Below, in pieces: positions 1 through 41,718 of a DNA stretch of 64,000 nucleotides. A program made the position numbers and the translations under genes. This DNA comes from Myxococcota bacterium (GTDB taxonomy: Bacteria; Myxococcota_A; UBA9042; DTJE01), in contig JAGOKF010000008.1 of NCBI GenBank assembly GCA_017994695.1, positions 1-64,000 on the forward strand, given 5' to 3'. The first letter of the stretch is position 1. Each line of letters opens with the position of its first letter. The notes beneath the pieces were generated by a model. That model was not told the DNA's origin. It ran no database searches and saw only the letters and a list, made by a program, of their open reading frames with translations.

Positions 1-575
1 CGTGCGCGCGGCGCCAGGAAGAAGCGGAAGTCGCTTTCGGGCGACCGGGCGCCCGCGAAGGAGATCCGGAAGCCCGTGTCAGCGCGCACGAACACGTCCC
101 CGTCGACCAGGGGATGGGGCTCCTTCAGGCGCAGGAACAGGCCGTTGGTGCTTCCCAGGTCCTCGACCCGGAGGGAGTCCCCTTCGGGGGTCATCCGCAC
201 GTGGCGCGGTGACACCGTGTCGTCCTCGGGGAACGACAGGTCCGCGCCGAATCTCCCGACGACCAGCCCCTGGAGCGGGATGTCCCTGGGGATTGGCGCG
301 CCTCCGCCCCGGGGCAGGCGGACGATCCGGAACCCGCCCACCGCCGGCGGCACCGGAGCGCCGGGCCGGGTCCGGACGCTCGAGATCGGCTGCGGGGCGG
401 GGCGGGCTTCCGACGCTTCCAGGGTCGTCGGACCCGGATCCCCGGCCCGAGGCTCTGGCGCCGGAGCCTGCTCCGGTCCGGGCGCGGCCTGGAGGGTCGA
501 TCCGCACTCGGGACAGAACAGGTACTGGGGGTCGAGGACCTTCCTGCAGGATGCACAGTATTTCTGGACGCTCAC
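1..575 (-). CDS. Zinc-ribbon/FHA domain protein (3' end outside window)
   Basis: The product probably binds phosphothreonine-containing partners in the cytoplasm. Translated from GTG 575, it opens with a zinc ribbon made of two Cys pairs (CASCRK near residue 5 and CPECGS near residue 20), then a Pro/Ala/Glu-rich linker, then an FHA core near residues 110-165. That core shows GRFGADLSF, SPRHV and the signature DLGSTNG. The reading frame runs off the left edge, so the C-terminus is missing. An upstream in-frame TTG and GTG are possible starts; 575 is chosen because the zinc ribbon begins immediately after it. The gene lies 52 bp behind the pdxB-like gene on the same strand and may share its transcript. 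FHA proteins usually read Ser/Thr-kinase output, and a kinase lies at 41.8 kb, but a link between them is only a guess. Confidence 0.75.
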   Translation of the reverse strand, partial: MSVQKYCASCRKVLDPQYLFCPECGSTLQAAPGPEQAPAPEPRAGDPGPTTLEASEARPAPQPISSVRTRPGAPVPPAVGGFRIVRLPRGGGAPIPRDIPLQGLVVGRFGADLSFPEDDTVSPRHVRMTPEGDSLRVEDLGSTNGLFLRLKEPHPLVDGDVFVRADTGFRISFAGARSPESDFRFFLAPRA

Positions 576-627
576 GGCACTACCCGACAAGGCCACCGAC
601 CCATTGTCGAGCCGGACCGGGCGATTG

Positions 628-1761
628 TCAATGCGGCCCGGCCTCGGAAAGCCATCGGATCTCCCGGCGAAGACAGGATGCCCGGCGCCCCCGGAAGACG
701 GCCGGCCGATCCCCCGGCGGGGCCTCCCCGAATGCCCGCTGAAATTCGCGGGACCACCGGTCCAGGGGACAAACCTCCCGGAGGACGCGGTGGGCTTCGG
801 CGGGGGAGGCCCCGGGTCCGATGGCCGGCGCAGGTTCCGAGGCGAATCCTCCTGGGGGTTCGGGGGTCCCGGGAGACGCGGGCAACCCCAGGCGGCGCAA
901 CAGGGGTCGCCGGACCTGGAGAATGGCCCGCCATCGCCCCTCCAGGACCGAACCGGCCACATGCGGCGTCGCCCACCGGGCACCCAGGACCCAGAAGATC
1001 GGGGGGGACGGCTCGCCGATGAAGACGTCCAGTGCCAGGGCCGGGGCGCTTCCAAGGTCCAGGTGTTCCTCGACGGCCGGCGGATCCAGCACCTCGCCGC
1101 GGCTCGTGTTCACCAGCAGGCCGACTCCGCAGCCCCGCAGGCCCCGGAAGACGCGGGCGTCCACCATGCCCCGGGTCGGCCAGGGGCAGGGAGGCCGGGT
1201 GGCCGGGACATGGAGGGAGACGACCTGGCACCGGAACAGGTCCTCCATCGTCGTGGAACGGAAGCGATGATGGCTCCGCGCCTCCCGAGGGGGATCGAAG
1301 GCGACCCAGGGGATGCCCAGTCGGTCGAGCCTCGCGGCCAGGGCCTGCCCGCACCGGCCGAAACCCCAGATTCCCACCCGGGGCGGGTTCCCGTTCCAGG
1401 GGGGCGGGAAGGCCTCCAGGATGGCCGCCACCGCGTAGTCGCCCACGCCGCCCGCGGTGGATCCGGGGGCGAACAGCACCGGGACCGGGTGTCCCAGCCG
1501 CGCCTCCAGCCGGGCCACGGCCTCCCGGCGGACATGATCGCGCCCGACCACGGGGGATGCGATCACCTTCAGGCGCCGGGCCTTCCGGAGGAGGGTGTCG
1601 TCCACTGGACACGACGAGGGCACGACGATGGCATCGGCGTCCTCCAAGAGGTCCGGATGGGCCACGAGGTCCTGGGAGGGGTGCAGGCGCAGCGACAGTT
1701 CCGGGAAGGCTTCCCGGACCCAGGGGATCGAGGGGTCCGCGATCACGACGGGGCTTCTCAT
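628..1761 (-). CDS. pdxB: PdxB-like D-2-hydroxyacid dehydrogenase (erythronate-4-phosphate dehydrogenase)
   Basis: This is predicted to be an NAD-dependent dehydrogenase that oxidises 4-phosphoerythronate in the DXP-dependent pathway to pyridoxal phosphate. The 377-residue protein is about the length of E. coli PdxB (378). It has the split substrate-binding domain at both ends and a Rossmann fold between, with GIWGFGRCG near residue 129, the catalytic Arg in NTSRGEV and a His in the PdxB-like stretch TPHVAGSVLEG. The C-terminal extension of about 100 residues is typical of PdxB rather than of general hydroxyacid dehydrogenases. ATG 1761 has a good GGGAGG ribosome site. The gene follows a small Cys-rich gene by 28 bp and precedes the FHA gene, so the three may form an operon. 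The family is well supported; the exact substrate is inferred from the PdxB-like ending. Confidence 0.75.
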   Translation of the reverse strand: MRSPVVIADPSIPWVREAFPELSLRLHPSQDLVAHPDLLEDADAIVVPSSCPVDDTLLRKARRLKVIASPVVGRDHVRREAVARLEARLGHPVPVLFAPGSTAGGVGDYAVAAILEAFPPPWNGNPPRVGIWGFGRCGQALAARLDRLGIPWVAFDPPREARSHHRFRSTTMEDLFRCQVVSLHVPATRPPCPWPTRGMVDARVFRGLRGCGVGLLVNTSRGEVLDPPAVEEHLDLGSAPALALDVFIGEPSPPIFWVLGARWATPHVAGSVLEGRWRAILQVRRPLLRRLGLPASPGTPEPPGGFASEPAPAIGPGASPAEAHRVLREVCPLDRWSREFQRAFGEAPPGDRPAVFRGRRASCLRREIRWLSEAGPH

Positions 1762-31281: not shown

Positions 31282-31417
31282 CCCTCGGGCCTCCATCCGG
31301 CACCAACCCGGCATTCCGCAGGGACGGCCGGGGTGCCCGCCGGCCGGGGTGCAGCCGGGCCCGGCGCGACCGGGAAGGCGGATCCCGGAGTCCCTCGGGG
31401 CATGTTGGGAAGGGACT

Positions 31418-31439
31418 TTCCCCGTCGCGAGTCGGGGAA
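31418..31439. terminator. Hairpin after thiD
   Basis: A perfect 7-bp stem TTCCCCG / CGGGGAA encloses an 8-base loop, 137 bp after thiD. No T-run follows. It immediately precedes a TACCCT -10-like box for the next gene, so it could also be an operator. Confidence 0.35.
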
Positions 31440-31486
31440 TCCTGCTACCCTTTCCCCGGGAACCAACACGGCCGGAGGCCGGGATC

Positions 31487-33352
31487 GTGGGAACGTCGTG
31501 GATCCTGGTGGCAACGGTCCACCTGCCGGTGCTGCTGGCCCTCCTGCCGGGGCTGCTGGCCGTCGGGACCGTGTATTCGCTGGCCCGCTCCACAGACCCC
31601 TCCGGGTCCCTGCGGAGGCGACTGGCCGGGGCGGTCGGCCTGGGCGCCGTGCTGGTGATCGCCCCGCGGATGGAGGCGCCGGACCTGGTCCAGGGGGCCA
31701 CGGCCCTGGCGCTGATGGCGGCGCTGGGGTGGTTCCCGTTCCTGGCCCTGCTGGCCGGAACGGACGAGCATTCGTCCCGGCGGCTGGTCCGGGGCCTCTG
31801 GCTGGCCCTGGCGGCCATCGGCCTCCTCGTGGTGGCCGAGTCGTTCCAGCGGACCTTCCACGTCTCCCGGACCCTCGTGCTGCAGGCGGTGGACCAGGTG
31901 GGCGAGATCCGGCTCGCCGACGTCCGGGCCGGTTTCCAGGAACCGCTGCTCTCCCGGTCGCTGCTGCAGCAACTGCTGCTCGTCTTCCCGTTCTTCCTGA
32001 TCCTGCTTCCGGTGCTGGTTCCGGGGGGGCCCCTCCTGTGGCCCGTCGGCCTGATCCCCATCCTCCAGTACCTCTGGACGGCCCCGGCGGTCCTGCTCGC
32101 GACCTGCCGGGCGGCCTGGCGACCGGACAAGGCCGCCCCGCTGGCGGTGCTGGGGCTGGTGATCGCGGTGCACCCGTTGCTGCTGGACAAGTCCTCCTGG
32201 GACTTCATCCCTCCCGGCCTGCTGCTGTTCCTGGTCGCCTGGCACCTGGAACGGACGGGGGCCCGGTGGGCTTTCGCCCTGGTCCTGGGGCTGGCCTCGT
32301 GGAGCCACCCTTCCCAGGCGGTGATGGGGGCCCTGTGGGCGGCGGATCACGCCCGCCGGAACTGGGCATCCGAACCCCCTGGGCAGCGGCGGAGCCTGCT
32401 GTGGGTCCCGGCGATCGCCTGGGGCATGGCCGCGCTTCCTCTGCTGGCGATGCTGATCCCCGCCCTGGTTCGTCCAGACACGGCCCTGATGCATCACCTG
32501 GCCCCCTATGCCCGCCGGAGGACGGCTGCCTACCTCCTGGGCGGGCACTTCGAGGTGCTGGGGTGGATGGTGATCTCGAACGTGCTCAAGATCCTGCTGC
32601 TGCTGGCCTCCTTGGGCTTGGTGCCGGTGCTTCGCCGGAACCGGTTCCTGGCCTACGGGGCCTTCGAGGTCCTCTATTCCCTGGTCACGGACAACGGCTT
32701 CACCCACGGTTCCCTGCCCGGATGCCTGGGCCTGCTGGGATGCGCGACCCTGGAAAACTCCCTCCACCTTTCCCCGTCCCGGCTGCGCCGGTCGGCGTGG
32801 ATCGCCGCCGCGCTGCTGCTTCCCTTGACCGTCTGGTGGAATCCCCAGCATCTGGCGGTGCAACTGCTCCGCAACCGGACCGGAGACCGCCTGGAAGACC
32901 TGGAGGCCCTGATCGTGCCAGAGGACCGGGACCGGACCTGCGTGGGGCAGGCGGCCACCTACCCCGTGCTGGCGGGCCGTTGTCGGGGCGAGGGGGTCCT
33001 GCGTCTTCCCGAAGGCCGTCCCGGTGCCAACGCCCGGGACGGGGACGTCTACCTGCTGGACTTCTCGCCGCCGCCCTGGCCGCCGGAGTCCGGGGGGATC
33101 CGGGACCTCCTCGAGAAACCCTGGTTCGGTCGACCCGAGGACGGGCCGGAGGAGACGGCCCCGCTGAATTTCCAGGGGGAGCCCATCCCCGAGGACCTCG
33201 CCTGGCTGAAGGAGCGGATCGTGGCGGGCGAACTGGTGGTGACCCGGAACGAGGGCGGACGGATCCGCCTGGACCGGGTCCGGCCCCTGGCAACCTCTCC
33301 AACATCTTCTGCCGATCCGTCGGGATCGCCGGGAGTCGCCGCCGGGCCTTGA
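31487..33352 (+). CDS. Large multi-pass membrane protein, unknown function
   Basis: This 621-residue inner-membrane protein has about ten to twelve hydrophobic helices over residues 1-430, then a soluble C-terminal region rich in Pro and charged residues. The pattern of helices, loop RPDTALMHHLAPYARR and the late LLYSLVTDNGFTHG stretch recalls DUF2079-type or glycosyltransferase-like membrane proteins, but I see no decisive motif and do not assign activity. GTG 31487 is chosen for the GGAGG eight bases upstream; the frame is open for 138 bp more but has no ribosome site. The gene stands alone between thiD and a lipoprotein esterase. Confidence 0.6.
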   Translation: MGTSWILVATVHLPVLLALLPGLLAVGTVYSLARSTDPSGSLRRRLAGAVGLGAVLVIAPRMEAPDLVQGATALALMAALGWFPFLALLAGTDEHSSRRLVRGLWLALAAIGLLVVAESFQRTFHVSRTLVLQAVDQVGEIRLADVRAGFQEPLLSRSLLQQLLLVFPFFLILLPVLVPGGPLLWPVGLIPILQYLWTAPAVLLATCRAAWRPDKAAPLAVLGLVIAVHPLLLDKSSWDFIPPGLLLFLVAWHLERTGARWAFALVLGLASWSHPSQAVMGALWAADHARRNWASEPPGQRRSLLWVPAIAWGMAALPLLAMLIPALVRPDTALMHHLAPYARRRTAAYLLGGHFEVLGWMVISNVLKILLLLASLGLVPVLRRNRFLAYGAFEVLYSLVTDNGFTHGSLPGCLGLLGCATLENSLHLSPSRLRRSAWIAAALLLPLTVWWNPQHLAVQLLRNRTGDRLEDLEALIVPEDRDRTCVGQAATYPVLAGRCRGEGVLRLPEGRPGANARDGDVYLLDFSPPPWPPESGGIRDLLEKPWFGRPEDGPEETAPLNFQGEPIPEDLAWLKERIVAGELVVTRNEGGRIRLDRVRPLATSPTSSADPSGSPGVAAGP

Positions 33353-33526: not shown

Positions 33527-33632
33527 GCCCCCGGCTTCCCGGCGGATGTGCTCCGAGTCGGGGAACGCCGGATTGGCGTGCGGCACGAAGAGGTGGGCAG
33601 GCGCGACCGTCGCGCCGCGAGGGGAGGTCCCG

Positions 33633-35960
33633 GTGAGAACTCGATGGCTGGCGCTGGCGTGCGGATGGTGGATGGCCTGCGGAGGCGGGGGCGGTGGGCA
33701 GGACCTGCTGCCCGACGGGGCTTCCGACCCGGGAATCCAGGACGACGGGATGCCCGGCGACGTGATGGAGGAGGTCCGGGACGTTCCTCCCGGGGATGCC
33801 GATCCGGGAGTTCCGCCCGAGGACGTGGTTTCCCCCGATCTCCCCGCGGATCCGGCGCAGGATCCGGGGATCCCTGATGCCGACGCGGCGGAGGATGTCC
33901 CCCTGGTACAGAAGCACTTCACCTACAGGACGGTGGCCGGGATGTCGATGGGGGCGATGGCCCTGACGGTCGCGGCCCACCATCCCGAGTGGTTCGACTC
34001 GGCGGGGGGGCTGGGCGGATACGTGGACTTCCACTACCTGTTCCACGTGATGCGGGACATGATGGGCGGCGGCTTCTGCCCGATGGAGCAACTGCTCCAG
34101 CCGGAGGTGCTGGCGGACATCAACAACCCGGACAACCCCTCGGTCTTCTGCGGCAACCAGATCCCCCTCCAGCCCTGGGAGTTCTACTGGGATTTCAATC
34201 ATTTCCACTATGACAACCAGGGTGGGAACTGGGACCGGGACTTCTACCACGACGTGCTCGAAAGCATTTCCTTCGCCTATGGCAACCCCATCGCCTGGAA
34301 TCCGGATCACCCCCTGCTGCCTCCAGGCGTTCCCCCGGAGGAACTGCAGCGCACCGACCGGGATCGCTGCCAGAACCCGGTCCGGGTGGGCAAGCCGCAC
34401 AACTACAACGCCGAGTACAACCCCGACGGGGAGTACGAACTGGTCGGGTTCTGCGACGGAGAGACGCCGGTGGGCTGCTACCAGGGCGACCCGAACCTCT
34501 GCGGCAAGTCCAATCCCGAATACTGGGACCTCGTCGGCCGCTACGATCCGACCCATGCCTACAACCGGCCCGTGAACCTGGTCCTGGCCGTGGACTACAA
34601 CCGGAACGGGCGCAAGGACTACGGCGAGCCCCTCGTGATGAACATGGCCGAGCGCTGGCAGGACTGGGGCGTGGACGGGTGCCCCAATCCCCGGGAGGAC
34701 GGCGACGGGGGATGCACGGTGGGGGTGAGCCCCTCCTGGCGGGAAGGGGAGGACCCGAACGGCGACGACTTCGACCTGCTGCAGAATCCCCAGGGAACCG
34801 AGGGCAACCGGGAATATGACGAAGGGGAGAACTACGACGACTACGGCCTGGACGGGGTCCCCGAGGCCCGGGCCGGGTTCGCGGACTACGGGGAGGGGAA
34901 CGGCCGCTTCGACTTCAACCCGAACCTGGCCGCCATGCTGGAAGCCGACAGCCGGACCTTCTTCCGGACGGCGCCTTACGAGGTGCTCAGGGACCGCCAG
35001 TACTACTTCGACGGCGGCATCCGGGACGCCCTCCATGCCCTGACCCACATGGTGCACCTGGGGAACGCCCTGGCGGCCCGGGGATTCCAGGTGCGCCGCT
35101 ACATGGACTTCGGAGGGAATCCCGAGGCCCTGATGCCCCAGTACTCCTGCTTCGAGGTGCTGGACCACCTGGACGAGATCGACTGGGGCCGGAAGGGGAT
35201 CGGGGATGCCGTGGTGATGGGATACGGAAACCCCGCCGGCAAGGTCGGGGATGCCAGCGGGGGCCACGTCGGAGATGGGTGCGAGGTGCTGCTCCGGGCG
35301 GGAATCCTGTACACGATGGCGATGGCCCGCATGCCCGACCCGATCTGGGTGGACGACTACGACTTCGACGGGCGGATCGAGTTCCGGTCCTACTACAGCG
35401 AGATCCTGGGCCAGCGCAGGTGGTACGCGGTGAATCTCCCGCCGGGCTACTACGCGCCGGAGTTCCGGGACACCCGCTATCCCCTGGGCCTGATCCTGCC
35501 GGGGGTCGGGATGCCCCTGAAGGAAACCATCGGCATCACCGCGGTGATGAACCTGACCTGGGGCTACGGCAGGACCCCGCGCTTCGTGCTGCTGGCTCCC
35601 GACGGCCAGTGCTGCTACCGCAAGAACGACACCGGCGAACGCTACTGCAACTGCTACAGGGACGACGGGGGCATGTTCACCTGCGTGGACCCCCAGTGCC
35701 GGGGTGAACACGAGGAATGCCAGGTCTTCCAGATCCGGAACCAGGGGTTCACGCAGGAGTGCAACAGCGGCCACTTCTTCGTGAACCAGCGGACCAACCG
35801 CTGGGGAGAGGACCTGTCGGTGGACAGCACCAACTCCTTCGAGGACGCCCTGTTCGAGGTGATCCGGGAGGCGGAACGGGCCTACCGGCTGCGGCCCGAG
35901 GAGGACGTGATGGTGCCCGCGGACTTCCCCGACCGCCTGCCCCCGCGCCGGTACCGCTAG
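33633..35960 (+). CDS. Lipoprotein esterase of the PF00756 type with permuted domain order
   Basis: The protein is probably an alpha/beta-hydrolase esterase anchored outside the cytoplasm. The signal peptide ends in the lipobox MAC (Cys near residue 18), followed by a Gly run and an acidic stalk (about 25-90). The nucleophile elbow GMSMG (Ser105) and its AAHHPEWFD helix come first. Ca2+-type acidic loops (DYNRNGRKDYGE, DYDFDGRIEF) lie in between. At about residues 587-755 comes what normally starts such esterases: SEILGQRRWYAVNLPPGYY, the RYPLGLILPG strand, LLAPDG and FEDALFEVIREAERAYR. Relative to usual esterase order the halves are swapped, as in a circular permutation. GTG 33633 has GGGGAGG upstream. 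Confidence 0.75.
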   Translation: MRTRWLALACGWWMACGGGGGGQDLLPDGASDPGIQDDGMPGDVMEEVRDVPPGDADPGVPPEDVVSPDLPADPAQDPGIPDADAAEDVPLVQKHFTYRTVAGMSMGAMALTVAAHHPEWFDSAGGLGGYVDFHYLFHVMRDMMGGGFCPMEQLLQPEVLADINNPDNPSVFCGNQIPLQPWEFYWDFNHFHYDNQGGNWDRDFYHDVLESISFAYGNPIAWNPDHPLLPPGVPPEELQRTDRDRCQNPVRVGKPHNYNAEYNPDGEYELVGFCDGETPVGCYQGDPNLCGKSNPEYWDLVGRYDPTHAYNRPVNLVLAVDYNRNGRKDYGEPLVMNMAERWQDWGVDGCPNPREDGDGGCTVGVSPSWREGEDPNGDDFDLLQNPQGTEGNREYDEGENYDDYGLDGVPEARAGFADYGEGNGRFDFNPNLAAMLEADSRTFFRTAPYEVLRDRQYYFDGGIRDALHALTHMVHLGNALAARGFQVRRYMDFGGNPEALMPQYSCFEVLDHLDEIDWGRKGIGDAVVMGYGNPAGKVGDASGGHVGDGCEVLLRAGILYTMAMARMPDPIWVDDYDFDGRIEFRSYYSEILGQRRWYAVNLPPGYYAPEFRDTRYPLGLILPGVGMPLKETIGITAVMNLTWGYGRTPRFVLLAPDGQCCYRKNDTGERYCNCYRDDGGMFTCVDPQCRGEHEECQVFQIRNQGFTQECNSGHFFVNQRTNRWGEDLSVDSTNSFEDALFEVIREAERAYRLRPEEDVMVPADFPDRLPPRRYR

Positions 35961-37573: not shown

Positions 37574-39550
37574 CTAGAACTCGTAGCCCCAGGTCACGGT
37601 CAGGAGGTCGTCCTGGTAGCGGGCGCCGACGTGGCCCCAGATGCCGTCGGTGCGCTGGTAGGAGGCCTGGAGGAGGTGCCGGCCGCCGGGGCGGAAGGTG
37701 ACCTGGGGGGCGACCTGCAGCAGCAGGGCGTTGTCCCCCTCTCCCCAGGCGTGCCAGAGGTGCAGCGACAGGGAGTAGGCGAACCAGGCCTGCACCGCGT
37801 GGGTCCACCGGACCACCGGGCCGTGTAGGTGGTAGTGGTCCGGGGCGAAGTAGGTGATGCGCCCGTAGCGCCGCCCGGGGTAGCGGAACCCCTCCCCCTC
37901 GTACTCGTACAGAAGTTCCAGCCGCGGGGAATCCATCACCCGTACTCCCGTGGCGGCCGACACGCTCCAGCGCTGGTTCCAGTCGGACCAGATGCCGTAA
38001 CTGCCCCCGACGTGGAGGATCCACCGGTCCACCGGTTCGGAGTCCAGGCCGACGGACAGGGAGTTGGCGACGATGCGGGTCTCGATGTCCCCGATGGCGG
38101 TGATCACGTCGGCGCGGCGGATCTCCGCTGCCAGGCTCACCCGGTCGAAGTCCCGGGAGACCACCAGATAGCCGTTGCCCGAATCGAAGCCGGTGTCGTA
38201 GTGCTGCCAGGATGCCCCGAGGGAGATCTGGACGGCGGTCAGGTCGGCCTCCGCGAAGGCCCCGACCGCATGGCCCAGCACCGTTCGCTGCCCCCGGTCG
38301 GGGTCGCTGGAGGGCCCCCGGAGATGCCGGAACTGGTAGAAGGCGCCGATGCTCGCCTCGGGGAGGAACTGCCAGGCTCCCCGGGGACCGATGCCGTGGA
38401 ACCAGAGGCGGTTCCTTTCGTGGAACAGCGTGTATTCCAGCGCGACGTGGGAGGCGAGGCCCGTGTCGGCCAGCACGGACTGGCGCGCCAGGTCCCGGAA
38501 CCTGGGGTCGGAGGTCCGGAGCAGGGTCGCATACCTCCGGGCCCGGGAACCGAGTCCCAGGTCCGAGGACAGCGAGAGGGCCCGGGCCCGGATCTCCCCG
38601 TCGAAGGGCTGCTGGTCCAGCAGCCGATCGTAAAGCCGCAGGGCATCCCGGGGGCGTCCGTTCCACTCGTAGAGAAGGCCCAGGGTCCGGATCGCCAGCG
38701 GGTCGTCGGGCAGCGCCGCAAGGAGGCGCTCGTAGGCTTCGATGGCCTCCCGTTCCCGGCCGTCGTCCAGGTGCATCGCGGCCAGTTGCCGGAGGGCCTC
38801 CAGGTCGTCGGGACGCTGGCGCACCCGGGCCTCCAGGAGCCGCCGGGCATCCTCGGGGCGATCCTGCCAGCGGTACAACTGCATCAGCGTCCGGGCCACC
38901 TCCTCGTCGCCCGGCACGATCTCCAGGTATCGCGCCAGCAGGTCGATCGCCTCGGGCTGCCGGTCCTGGTCGGCCAGCAGCAGGCCGACGCGGCGCATCA
39001 GGGTCGGGTCGTCTCCCCGGCGGGAGAGCACCTCCCGGTACAGTTCCAGGGAACTGTCGGGGTGGTCCAGGGACAGCCAGAGGTCCGCCAGGCGAATTCG
39101 CGTGTCGTCGTCCAGGGGGTCGGCCTTCAGGACCTCTCCCCACTGGTCGGCGGCCTCCTCGAGGCGATCGAGGGCCAGCAGCGCCTCGGCGGCCGCCTTG
39201 CGGACGCCGGGATCCACGGGGTGCAGATCCAGGCAGGGGCCCAGCATCTCCAGGGCCTCGGCCGCGTTTCCCCGGGCCAGGGTCCCACGGGCCTCTGCGG
39301 TCCGTGCCCCGCAGTCCGGGGGAGGAGGCGGCGGTTCGGGAAGCACGGCCCCGCTTCCTGCTTGGACGGCCCCGGCCTTCCTCGGGGGGGCCTTCCGGGC
39401 ACCGGGGGACCGGGCGGATCCTTCCGCCGGGGGAGCCGATACGGCCTGGCCGTCCATCCGGACCGGAAAGGGATCCCCGGGACGCCCGAGGGAGACCCGG
39501 ACCGGCAGCGCGAGGGCCGTCGCGACGGCTACCGCCAGAAGATGCCGCAT
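37574..39550 (-). CDS. TPR outer-membrane beta-barrel protein
   Basis: The 658-residue protein is predicted to be exported to the outer membrane. After a signal peptide (LLAVAVATALALPVRVSLG) and a Pro/Ala-rich linker with CGARTAEA, it has seven to eight TPR units (about 80-345; for example ARLLEARVRQRP, EAIEAYERLLAALP, ALRLYDRLLDQQP). It then has a beta-strand region of 10-14 amphipathic strands (about 350-658) ending in aromatic WGYEF, the terminal Phe signature of outer-membrane barrels. Periplasmic TPRs followed by a barrel are typical of exopolysaccharide exporters such as PgaA, BcsC and PelB. The gene overlaps the end of the DUF2194 gene by 22 bp, supporting joint function. Confidence 0.8.
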   Translation of the reverse strand: MRHLLAVAVATALALPVRVSLGRPGDPFPVRMDGQAVSAPPAEGSARSPGARKAPPRKAGAVQAGSGAVLPEPPPPPPDCGARTAEARGTLARGNAAEALEMLGPCLDLHPVDPGVRKAAAEALLALDRLEEAADQWGEVLKADPLDDDTRIRLADLWLSLDHPDSSLELYREVLSRRGDDPTLMRRVGLLLADQDRQPEAIDLLARYLEIVPGDEEVARTLMQLYRWQDRPEDARRLLEARVRQRPDDLEALRQLAAMHLDDGREREAIEAYERLLAALPDDPLAIRTLGLLYEWNGRPRDALRLYDRLLDQQPFDGEIRARALSLSSDLGLGSRARRYATLLRTSDPRFRDLARQSVLADTGLASHVALEYTLFHERNRLWFHGIGPRGAWQFLPEASIGAFYQFRHLRGPSSDPDRGQRTVLGHAVGAFAEADLTAVQISLGASWQHYDTGFDSGNGYLVVSRDFDRVSLAAEIRRADVITAIGDIETRIVANSLSVGLDSEPVDRWILHVGGSYGIWSDWNQRWSVSAATGVRVMDSPRLELLYEYEGEGFRYPGRRYGRITYFAPDHYHLHGPVVRWTHAVQAWFAYSLSLHLWHAWGEGDNALLLQVAPQVTFRPGGRHLLQASYQRTDGIWGHVGARYQDDLLTVTWGYEF

Positions 39551-41607
39551 GCGCCTCCCCTGGAACGCAGGACGATTCGCGATTCCGCCCGGGAACGGAA
39601 GACTTCCTCGCAGGTCCCCTGGATCCGCACCTCCCGGTCCCGCGGCGGCCGGACCCAGAAGGTCAGCCCGCCATCGGGCGGGGACTCGACCTGGACCAGC
39701 AGCCCGTCGGCGTCCCGCAGGACCCGCAGGCCCGACTTCCACCACTGCCGGAGATGGGCCGAGGCCTCGGCCGCGGTCCTCCGGGTCATCCAGGGGTGGG
39801 CGCGGTCCACCTTCTCCAGCAGCAAGGACAGTTCCCGGACCATCCCGGGCCAGTCCCGGCCCCGGCTCCGTTCCGGGTCCAGCAGGTCGTCGGGATGGAT
39901 GAAGTGGCTGAACACCCCCGGCAGCACCAGGGCATCCAGGACTTCCTGGGCATTGTCGGCGTCGAGGAAGTGCTCCGAGGAGATCCGGGGGAGGTTCCAG
40001 AGACCCGGGACTTCCGGGTCCGGTCCGAACTCCTGTCCCAGGATGGGGCCCTCGTCCAGGTACTGGGTGGACAGGACCTCGATCTCCGGGAAGACCTGCC
40101 GCAGTGCCTCCTTGCCGACCCGCTGGACGAAGTTGCTGGGGGCGACGTAGGCCCTGGGGATCCGGTCCGCGCCGAAGACCCGCAGGTACTCCTCCCGCAG
40201 CATCGTCAGCGCCTTTCGCATGGCCCCGATCCCGCTCCAGCCGACGCTCCACTCGTTGCGCGCCAGGCTCAGGGACTGGTGGTTGAATCCGTGGAGGTCC
40301 ACCTCGTGACCCGCGCCGGAAATGGCCCGGGCCAGTTCCAGGGACGGGGAACCCTCCTGGTAGGTCCCCGGGACTCCCTCCTCGGGCATGCGGTCGTCGT
40401 AGGTCAGGATGAAGGCGAAGGTGGGCCGCAGGGAGTGGGCTTCGATCAGGGATCGGACGTCCGGCCACCAGCGGTTCCGGTAGAACTCCCCGTCGGGAAC
40501 CTCCGGGGATCCGGCCTCCACCCGGACCGGCCGGCCGCTGGTGGGCAGCGGGCAGTCGTCCAGGAAGAAGAGGTGGGCGTCCACCAGGGCCGAGACCAGC
40601 GGAGTCGCCTCCATCAGGGACAGCAGCATCAGCCCCCGGGCGGACTTGTCCGCCGGGACGGGGACGGTCCAGGCCACCACCGTGCCCGGGCCCCTCCGGA
40701 CCCGGAACGCCAGCGGGGCGTCGCCTCCCCGGACGCCGCAGAGCACCCTGGCCCCCTCCGGGACCCGGTACAGGGGCATCGGATCAGCATCCTCGTCCGG
40801 GATCCGGAAGAACAGACCGTCGGTCCCCGGAAGGAAGCCCGGCTGGCAGGTCCACTCCCGGAGGGGGGCCTCCCCGGTCGCGGCCTTCGCCCCCGCAAGA
40901 ACCCGGAGCACCTCGTCGTCGATGCCACCGAGCAGGACCACCGACCCGCCGGCCTGAAGGTAGCGTCCCAGGGTCGATCCCAGGGACTCGGCAATGGCGG
41001 GGGGCAGGTGGTCCGTCAGCATCGCCACCGCGTCGTATCGGAGGAGCCAGAGGTCCGGCAGACGGTCCAGGCGCCGGAGATCCAGGAAGTCCGCCTCCAG
41101 GCGGGAATAGGCCGCCATCCAGGAGGCCTCCCGGAGCAGCGCCGTCGACACCTCGCCGTCGTCCCAACCCGCCAGGAGCACCCGGGAGGGCCTGGGGAAC
41201 GCATCGCCCCGGAGGGTGTCCCGGATTTCCTGGAGGATGCGTCGGATCCCGGGGGCCGGATCCTCCGAGGGGATCGATCGGACGTCGGGGTTGGGATCCG
41301 GCGCCTCTCCGTTGGCCAGGCAGCGGACCCGGGCGAGGGGAGGGGAGGACGGATCCGTCGCCCGGGCTCGCCGCACCTCGATGCCCATTTCGTCCAGGTC
41401 CTGGCCGAAGGACACCCACTCGGGCCTGCGCACCACGCGGTCCGGGCAGTCGAGCAGGACCCGGGACGGCGGCGTCACCCAGCGGATCGGGGCCGTCGGG
41501 CGCGCGGGCCTCCGGTGGGCCGGAGCCGCTTCCGCCGCCGTCGCGACACCGGCGGCGCAGATCAGCGCCAGCATGGAACGACAGGCTCCCGGGACGAGTC
41601 CTGCCAC
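39529..41607 (-). CDS. DUF2194/polysaccharide deacetylase-like periplasmic protein
   Basis: From GTG 41607 the 692-residue protein opens with a signal peptide (LALICAAGVATAAEA, cleaved near residue 30). The C-terminal half has a (beta/alpha) deacetylase-like fold: AHLFFLDDCPLP near 350, TFAFILTYDDR, AGHEVDLHGFNHQ and FSHFIHPDD with paired His/Asp residues that could bind a metal. The N-terminal half has a class-I-glutamine-amidotransferase-like pattern (VVLLGGIDDEVLRVL). These features fit DUF2194, seen with exopolysaccharide genes. Promoter boxes at 41718-41690 rule out an earlier ATG at 41691-41693, which lies inside the -10 box. The downstream gene encodes a TPR-barrel exporter. Confidence 0.75.
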   Translation of the reverse strand: MAGLVPGACRSMLALICAAGVATAAEAAPAHRRPARPTAPIRWVTPPSRVLLDCPDRVVRRPEWVSFGQDLDEMGIEVRRARATDPSSPPLARVRCLANGEAPDPNPDVRSIPSEDPAPGIRRILQEIRDTLRGDAFPRPSRVLLAGWDDGEVSTALLREASWMAAYSRLEADFLDLRRLDRLPDLWLLRYDAVAMLTDHLPPAIAESLGSTLGRYLQAGGSVVLLGGIDDEVLRVLAGAKAATGEAPLREWTCQPGFLPGTDGLFFRIPDEDADPMPLYRVPEGARVLCGVRGGDAPLAFRVRRGPGTVVAWTVPVPADKSARGLMLLSLMEATPLVSALVDAHLFFLDDCPLPTSGRPVRVEAGSPEVPDGEFYRNRWWPDVRSLIEAHSLRPTFAFILTYDDRMPEEGVPGTYQEGSPSLELARAISGAGHEVDLHGFNHQSLSLARNEWSVGWSGIGAMRKALTMLREEYLRVFGADRIPRAYVAPSNFVQRVGKEALRQVFPEIEVLSTQYLDEGPILGQEFGPDPEVPGLWNLPRISSEHFLDADNAQEVLDALVLPGVFSHFIHPDDLLDPERSRGRDWPGMVRELSLLLEKVDRAHPWMTRRTAAEASAHLRQWWKSGLRVLRDADGLLVQVESPPDGGLTFWVRPPRDREVRIQGTCEEVFRSRAESRIVLRSRGGACGIFWR

Positions 41608-41689
41608 CGTGCCTCCCCGGCGCGCCTCCCTGCGAACTCGCCGGCGAATCCTCGGCGAACAGGCGCGGCCCTGGCGGAAATTCGGGCTC

Positions 41690-41718
41690 ATCGTAGCCGA
41701 GGCGGCAAGGCCGGTCAA
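41690..41718 (-). promoter_or_regulatory. Promoter of the DUF2194/TPR-barrel pair
   Basis: TTGACC (41718-41713), 17 bp, TACGAT (41695-41690) on the minus strand. The GTG start at 41607, with GGGGAGG before it, is about 80 bp downstream. Confidence 0.65.

Follow-up and report, generated by a model that had tools for sequence, protein, structure and literature searches.

Does the open frame at 33633-35960 (+) of this 64,000-nucleotide stretch of DNA (the window) encode an esterase whose two halves have exchanged places along the chain, and do those halves still build a single enzyme? We argue here that its product, P0001, is very probably a serine esterase of the feruloyl-esterase-like PF00756/CE1 type, exported and probably anchored to lipid, that is encoded by a circularly permuted gene and whose two halves form one alpha/beta-hydrolase fold.

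Results

Gene, putative export signal and neighbourhood

P0001 is a frame of 775 codons that opens with GTG at 33633 and whose stop ends at 35960. The GC content of its codon positions (0.68/0.43/0.90) is as expected for genuine coding DNA. At the N-terminus, a short hydrophobic stretch with Cys16 is followed by an acidic linker (Table 1). Judged by pattern, the lipobox (WWMAC) is atypical; most relatives have clean lipobox-like patterns (e.g., TMAAC, GFAAC or VSGC, by pattern match), for which reason the family is likely to consist of exported lipoproteins, an assignment that is less sure for P0001 than for its relatives.

Directly upstream of the esterase lies a gene (31349-33352, +) for a 667-residue hydrophobic, multi-spanning membrane protein with no Pfam match, and further along the window 39529-41718 (-) encodes a 729-residue exported DUF2194 protein with a weak match to DUF2334. 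Across the 21 regions compared, no neighbours were conserved beyond the esterase gene itself except among close relatives and, since the neighbourhood is not common to these regions, no operon hints at a substrate.

Table 1. Features of the permuted esterase gene in window coordinates, with residue numbers of P0001.
Feature	Residues	Position	Strand	Basis
Ribosome-binding-like AGGGGAGGT		33620-33628	+	sequence, ahead of GTG start
Permuted esterase, likely lipoprotein (775 aa)		33633..35960	+	open frame, codon-position GC, homologues
Putative signal peptide up to Cys16 (WWMAC, weak lipobox)		33633..33680	+	sequence; relatives' clean lipoboxes
Acidic Asp/Pro/Gly-rich linker	17-92	33681..33908	+	sequence
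Native N-terminal segment (canonical second half, beta5 to alphaF, including cap insert)	96-566	33918..35330	+	model secondary structure; alignment to C-terminal halves of canonical esterases
Nucleophile elbow GMSMG	Ser105	33939..33953	+	invariant; model strand 15-20 / helix 21-32
Acidic Ca2+-type cap insert, beta6-beta7	128-455	34014..34997	+	model; invariant acidic positions
EF-hand-pattern loop DYNRNGRKDYGE	321-332	34593..34628	+	conserved ligand positions
Proposed catalytic acid (GGIRD, after beta7)	Asp465	35025..35027	+	invariant
Proposed catalytic His (GGHVG, between beta8 and alphaF)	His545	35265..35267	+	invariant; model position
Native C-terminal segment (canonical first half, beta1 to alphaB)	581-756	35373..35900	+	profile 480-558/630-655 on 7xrt 27-105/118-144; model 491-672 on 1jt2 44-162
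Oxyanion-loop motif LPGVG		35496..35510	+	G624 and G626 invariant
Cys-rich insert, beta4-alphaB	659-727	35607..35813	+	27-homologue alignment

Order of the motifs and permuted homology

Along P0001, the second half of the PF00756/CE1 core (GMSMG at 103-107, Asp465, His545) precedes the first half, represented by LPPGYY (602-607), LILPGVG (620-626), LLAPDG (653-658), FEDALFEVI (736-744) and YRLRPE (751-756). The oxyanion-loop motif (622-626), which reads LHGxG in distant members, lies C-terminal to all three of Ser105, Asp465 and His545. The first-pass annotation, which had placed GMSMG first and LPPGYY, LILPG, LLAPDG and FEDALFEVI later, was thus right about the positions of these motifs, all of which we located in P0001.

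Pfam recognises in P0001 only a fragment of PF00756 Esterase (residues 93-134), at 20.8 bits against a cut-off of 22, the profile being split by the permutation. Three relatives exceed the cut-off (L026 with 24.4, L028 with 35.7 and L095 with 41.5 bits), and an NCBIfam scan of P0001 returned no match. Searched alone against the PDB with phmmer, P0001 matched the Bacteroides feruloyl esterase 7xrt in three pieces and in permuted order (P0001 583-629 to 30-73, 730-756 to 116-143 and 92-129 to 140-178). A profile built from an alignment of 27 family members found the same structure with an E-value of 5.1e-16, in four pieces that are again permuted (480-558 to 27-105, 630-655 to 118-144, 13-49 to 145-185 and, weakly, 328-372 to 202-249). 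The CE1 esterases 1jjf and 7b5v likewise matched with the C-segment first and the N-segment second. In the alignment with 7xrt, profile position 655, the native chain end, falls on residue 144 and position 13, the start, on the adjoining residue 145, in keeping with the earlier suggestion that the C-terminal helix leads naturally into the N-terminal nucleophile strand. The native termini are therefore adjacent in the unpermuted fold and the old termini are joined, as a circular permutation requires.

We also rotated the profile against one made from 30 canonical PF00756 sequences that this group of genomes encodes. In native order, hhalign aligned only the LPPGY half (score 91.1, E 1.9e-11); with the native termini joined and the chain cut anywhere between about 145 and 581, the score rose to about 151 (E 1e-19), with one continuous alignment across canonical positions 15-215. 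Aligned separately, the two halves scored 62 and 92. As a control, canonical profiles compared with each other scored 460 in native order and down to 252 when rotated, every rotation lowering the score. Because the long cap insert breaks the sequence alignment, hhalign stops short of the His, and the proposed assignments of Asp465 and His545 consequently have their basis in topology and conservation, not in strong sequence scores; in the profile search, Asp465 fell, weakly, on the acid motif CGDDDFL in 7xrt. Judged by these alignments, each half of the family's protein is homologous to CE1 enzymes, the canonical order being absent. A plasmid search returned only matches to canonical esterases covering about 13-25% of the query.

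Predicted structure

An AlphaFold2 model of residues 85-775 (model number plus 84 gives the protein residue) is one closed fold, with a pLDDT of 92.1 and a pTM of 0.91, and in it the two segments do not belong to separate folds. In model numbering, its elements run beta5 (15-20), helix C (21-32, with Ser21 at the turn), beta6 (39-43), a long loop-rich insert, beta7 (372-378) and then Asp381, beta8 (442-447), His461, helix F (465-481), beta1 (497-505), beta2 (510-518), beta3 (534-538), helix A (545-560), beta4 (568-572) and helix B (652-666). In the model, this is the alpha/beta-hydrolase order rotated to begin at beta5. Ser after beta5, Asp after beta7 and His between beta8 and alphaF occupy their topologically usual places, and from this topology and from conservation we infer that Ser105 lies near the His and the Asp.

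Structural comparison, which the first-pass annotation had called for, gave a consistent picture: unpermuted esterases match half by half, and a permuted one matches over the whole core. With VIA-align 2, the N-halves of canonical 6rzn, 1jt2 and 6y8g align only to model 466/491..672, and the C-halves of 1gkl, 5vol and FrmB-type enzymes align to model 7..489. The top match, far above other solved structures, is the Penicillium funiculosum PHB depolymerase 2D80 (Z 16.1, rmsd 4.0 over 243 residues, model 12..668 to 30..338). A second model, of the distant member L028 (pLDDT 79), gave 2d81 at Z 16.2 and aligned 1jt2 162..284 to model 11..462; together with 1jt2 44..162, aligned to the P0001 model, the two halves join at residue 162. 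Three independent lines, namely the order of the profile alignments, the rotation test with its canonical control and the high-confidence single-domain model, matched over its whole core by a permuted protein and half by half by unpermuted ones, thus agree in supporting circular permutation.

Relation to known permuted and unpermuted enzymes

What defines type 2 PHB depolymerases is that their oxyanion hole follows the triad, towards the C-terminus (PMC2666664). In 2D80, the catalytic residues are Ser39, Asp121 and His155, with Ser40 and Cys250 forming the oxyanion hole (PMC5445757), which is the order along the chain seen in P0001. Like P0001, 2D80/2D81 is permuted, with the Ser near the N-terminus and the oxyanion loop C-terminal (PMC2666664, PMC5445757), and it shares the cut before beta5; given an 18-residue offset between the starts of the alignment, Ser21 of the model (Ser105) would fall on Ser39 of 2D80. 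On the other hand, 2D80 has 318 residues against the 775 of P0001, and no acidic EF-hand-type cap has been described for it.

This leads to the strongest alternative, that P0001 is itself a polyester-degrading type 2 PHB depolymerase, whose permutation would go back to a permuted ancestor shared with that group. Such a reading would account for 2D80 being the best whole-core match with the same cut point, for the sequence Ser, Asp, His, oxyanion loop, and for the hydrophobic residue before the Ser, a feature linked to PHA depolymerases (PMC2666664). We nevertheless consider it rather unlikely. Identity to 2D80 in the structural alignment is just 14-15%, and the 27-member profile search of the PDB did not find 2D80 at E-values up to 10 but listed canonical CE1 esterases, down to 5e-16. 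Moreover, descriptions of 2D80 mention no Ca2+-type cap, and a hydrophobic x in GxSMG is usual among CE1 esterases too. By sequence, the closest enzymes to the family are the CE1 feruloyl/acetyl-xylan esterases 7xrt (BT_4077; E 5e-16), 1jjf/1jt2 (XynZ) and 7b5v, which share with P0001 the GxSMGG elbow, LPPGY, LHG/LPG and ED..ELI..YR; P0001 differs from them in its reversed halves, the acidic cap insert of about 330 residues, the Cys-rich insert and the lipoprotein-type N-terminus. S-formylglutathione hydrolase/esterase D (FrmB) is of the same fold class and its C-half aligns to the N-terminal part of the model, but it is unpermuted, soluble, without such a cap insert and more distant in sequence.

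As the alternative to circular permutation, the first-pass annotation had offered a swapped dimer; here, the N-terminal segment would find its C-terminal partner in a second chain. The halves are indeed separate segments, and the AlphaFold2 model is of a monomer, so that an oligomer is possible. However, this monomer closes by itself with a pTM of 0.91, making the swap unneeded; a single chain of the permuted 2D80 covers the whole core, and the native termini abut on 7xrt, all of which leaves the dimer very improbable.

Spread and conservation of the family

The permuted family occurs in about 99 of the 377 genomes sampled from the phylum (strong matches, with a best E below 1e-80). Of the 54 distinct ORFs collected, 48 are complete. 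Contig ends truncate four of the others, and the remaining two, both copies of the window gene, stand outside the 48 on account of a chance motif upstream. The nucleophile motif precedes the PPGY motif in all 48 complete ORFs scored, plus the window copy, and none of the 54 has an N-half upstream of the nucleophile. Ser105, Asp465 and His545 are invariant wherever present. P0001 might instead be a pseudo-enzyme, inactive or structural in role, or an artefact of assembly or gene fusion, as its score under the PF00756 cut-off might hint. Such a reading is hardly credible given the same order in 48 complete distinct ORFs from many genomes, a family found in about 99 genomes and an invariant Ser, Asp and His.

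The most divergent member is also permuted (L095:575-2353, -); its 593-residue frame has a reduced insert and scores 41.5 bits to PF00756. In distant members, the Cys-rich insert is short or absent. Long frames of 1000-1700 residues had been candidates for a retained duplicate N-half, but in L100 (1493 aa) and L101 (1304 aa) the profile detected a single permuted copy each. Distant members (L026-L032) carry upstream of GxSMG an extra N-terminal domain that looks beta-rich and has the motif 'P(L)GPAxxF'; Pfam names no such domain in the two members scanned, L026 and L028. The family also has paralogues, since one genome (G011) carries two permuted copies, on C118 and C133, that are 71% and 46% identical to P0001.

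An acidic, calcium-type cap

The cap insert comprises about 330 residues and sits at the usual cap site between beta6 and beta7, where the caps and lids of the alpha/beta-hydrolase fold are generally found (PMC11878206). The acidic Ca2+-like loops that had been noted in the middle of the chain are present and conserved: D321, N325, D329 and E332 are invariant in 27/27 members and N323 is found in 26/27, and many further acidic positions of the insert are also invariant. D321-N323-N325-R327-D329-E332 fits the EF-hand loop pattern, with ligands at positions 1, 3, 5, 9 and 12, which suggests that the loop may bind Ca2+. It resembles the EF-hand-like Ca2+ loops found outside EF-hand domains in its D-x-N-x-N-G-x-x-D-x-x-E pattern, but in the model it comes after a strand and without a following helix. 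The calcium-type cap probably shapes substrate access.

A similar acidic motif (TNPDPHGDDFD..NPGGTEGNGRFDEGEPLADRG) occurs in LptD-type outer-membrane proteins from other genomes of the phylum (L096:745-3372, L097, L098 and L099), which suggests that a putative Ca2+-type loop module has moved between unrelated exported proteins or has arisen in them by convergence. We rejected these loci, in whose genomes the acidic motif was the sole match, as unpermuted relatives sharing the acidic insert, as they encode LptD-type proteins (L096 by Pfam).

Discussion

In alpha/beta hydrolases, the elbow Ser attacks the ester carbonyl, with the His as base and the Asp orienting the His, and the oxyanion hole consists of backbone amides, some beside the Ser and others from the LPG/LHG loop. 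Applied to the permuted esterase, this chemistry would run as follows: Ser105 would attack the ester, aided by His545 and Asp465, and the backbone next to Ser105 would form the oxyanion hole together with the LPGVG loop of the C-terminal segment, with the acidic calcium-type insert covering or shaping the active site. On this reading, the chain begins just before the nucleophile strand beta5 and ends after alphaB, the helix that normally precedes beta5. Our guess for the substrate is a polymer that bears esters, either an acylated polysaccharide or a polyester.

Natural permutations usually come about when a domain is duplicated and the outer halves are then lost. In this family, the esterase domain was probably duplicated in tandem, after which the first N-half and the last C-half were lost, and the permutation would have been fixed before the present phylum-wide spread. 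A Runella slithyformis plasmid protein (L125:1327-3267) contains two complete canonical CE1 domains in tandem, met by the family profile in the order 461-569, 14-43, 479-559, 11-41. It serves as a positive control, its unpermuted domains giving the opposite order with the same profile, and shows that this type of duplication intermediate exists in nature.

The esterase described here represents a new family, and its rearrangement is of a kind already known, with type 2 PHB depolymerases as the precedent; the two may share one permutation or may have acquired it separately. Our search of the open-access literature turned up no account of a permuted CE1/PF00756 esterase, where absence is not proof, and a 2024 review of the superfamily names circular permutation for peripheral strands only (PMC11878206). 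The permutation explains why Pfam sees one half only, just below its cut-off, and a match so fragmentary means that permuted proteins are easily missed or misannotated. In both halves, the family is still similar in sequence to unpermuted CE1 esterases, and it occurs in many genomes, which, together with the tandem-CE1 relatives, makes the duplication-and-loss route testable by phylogeny and re-permutation.
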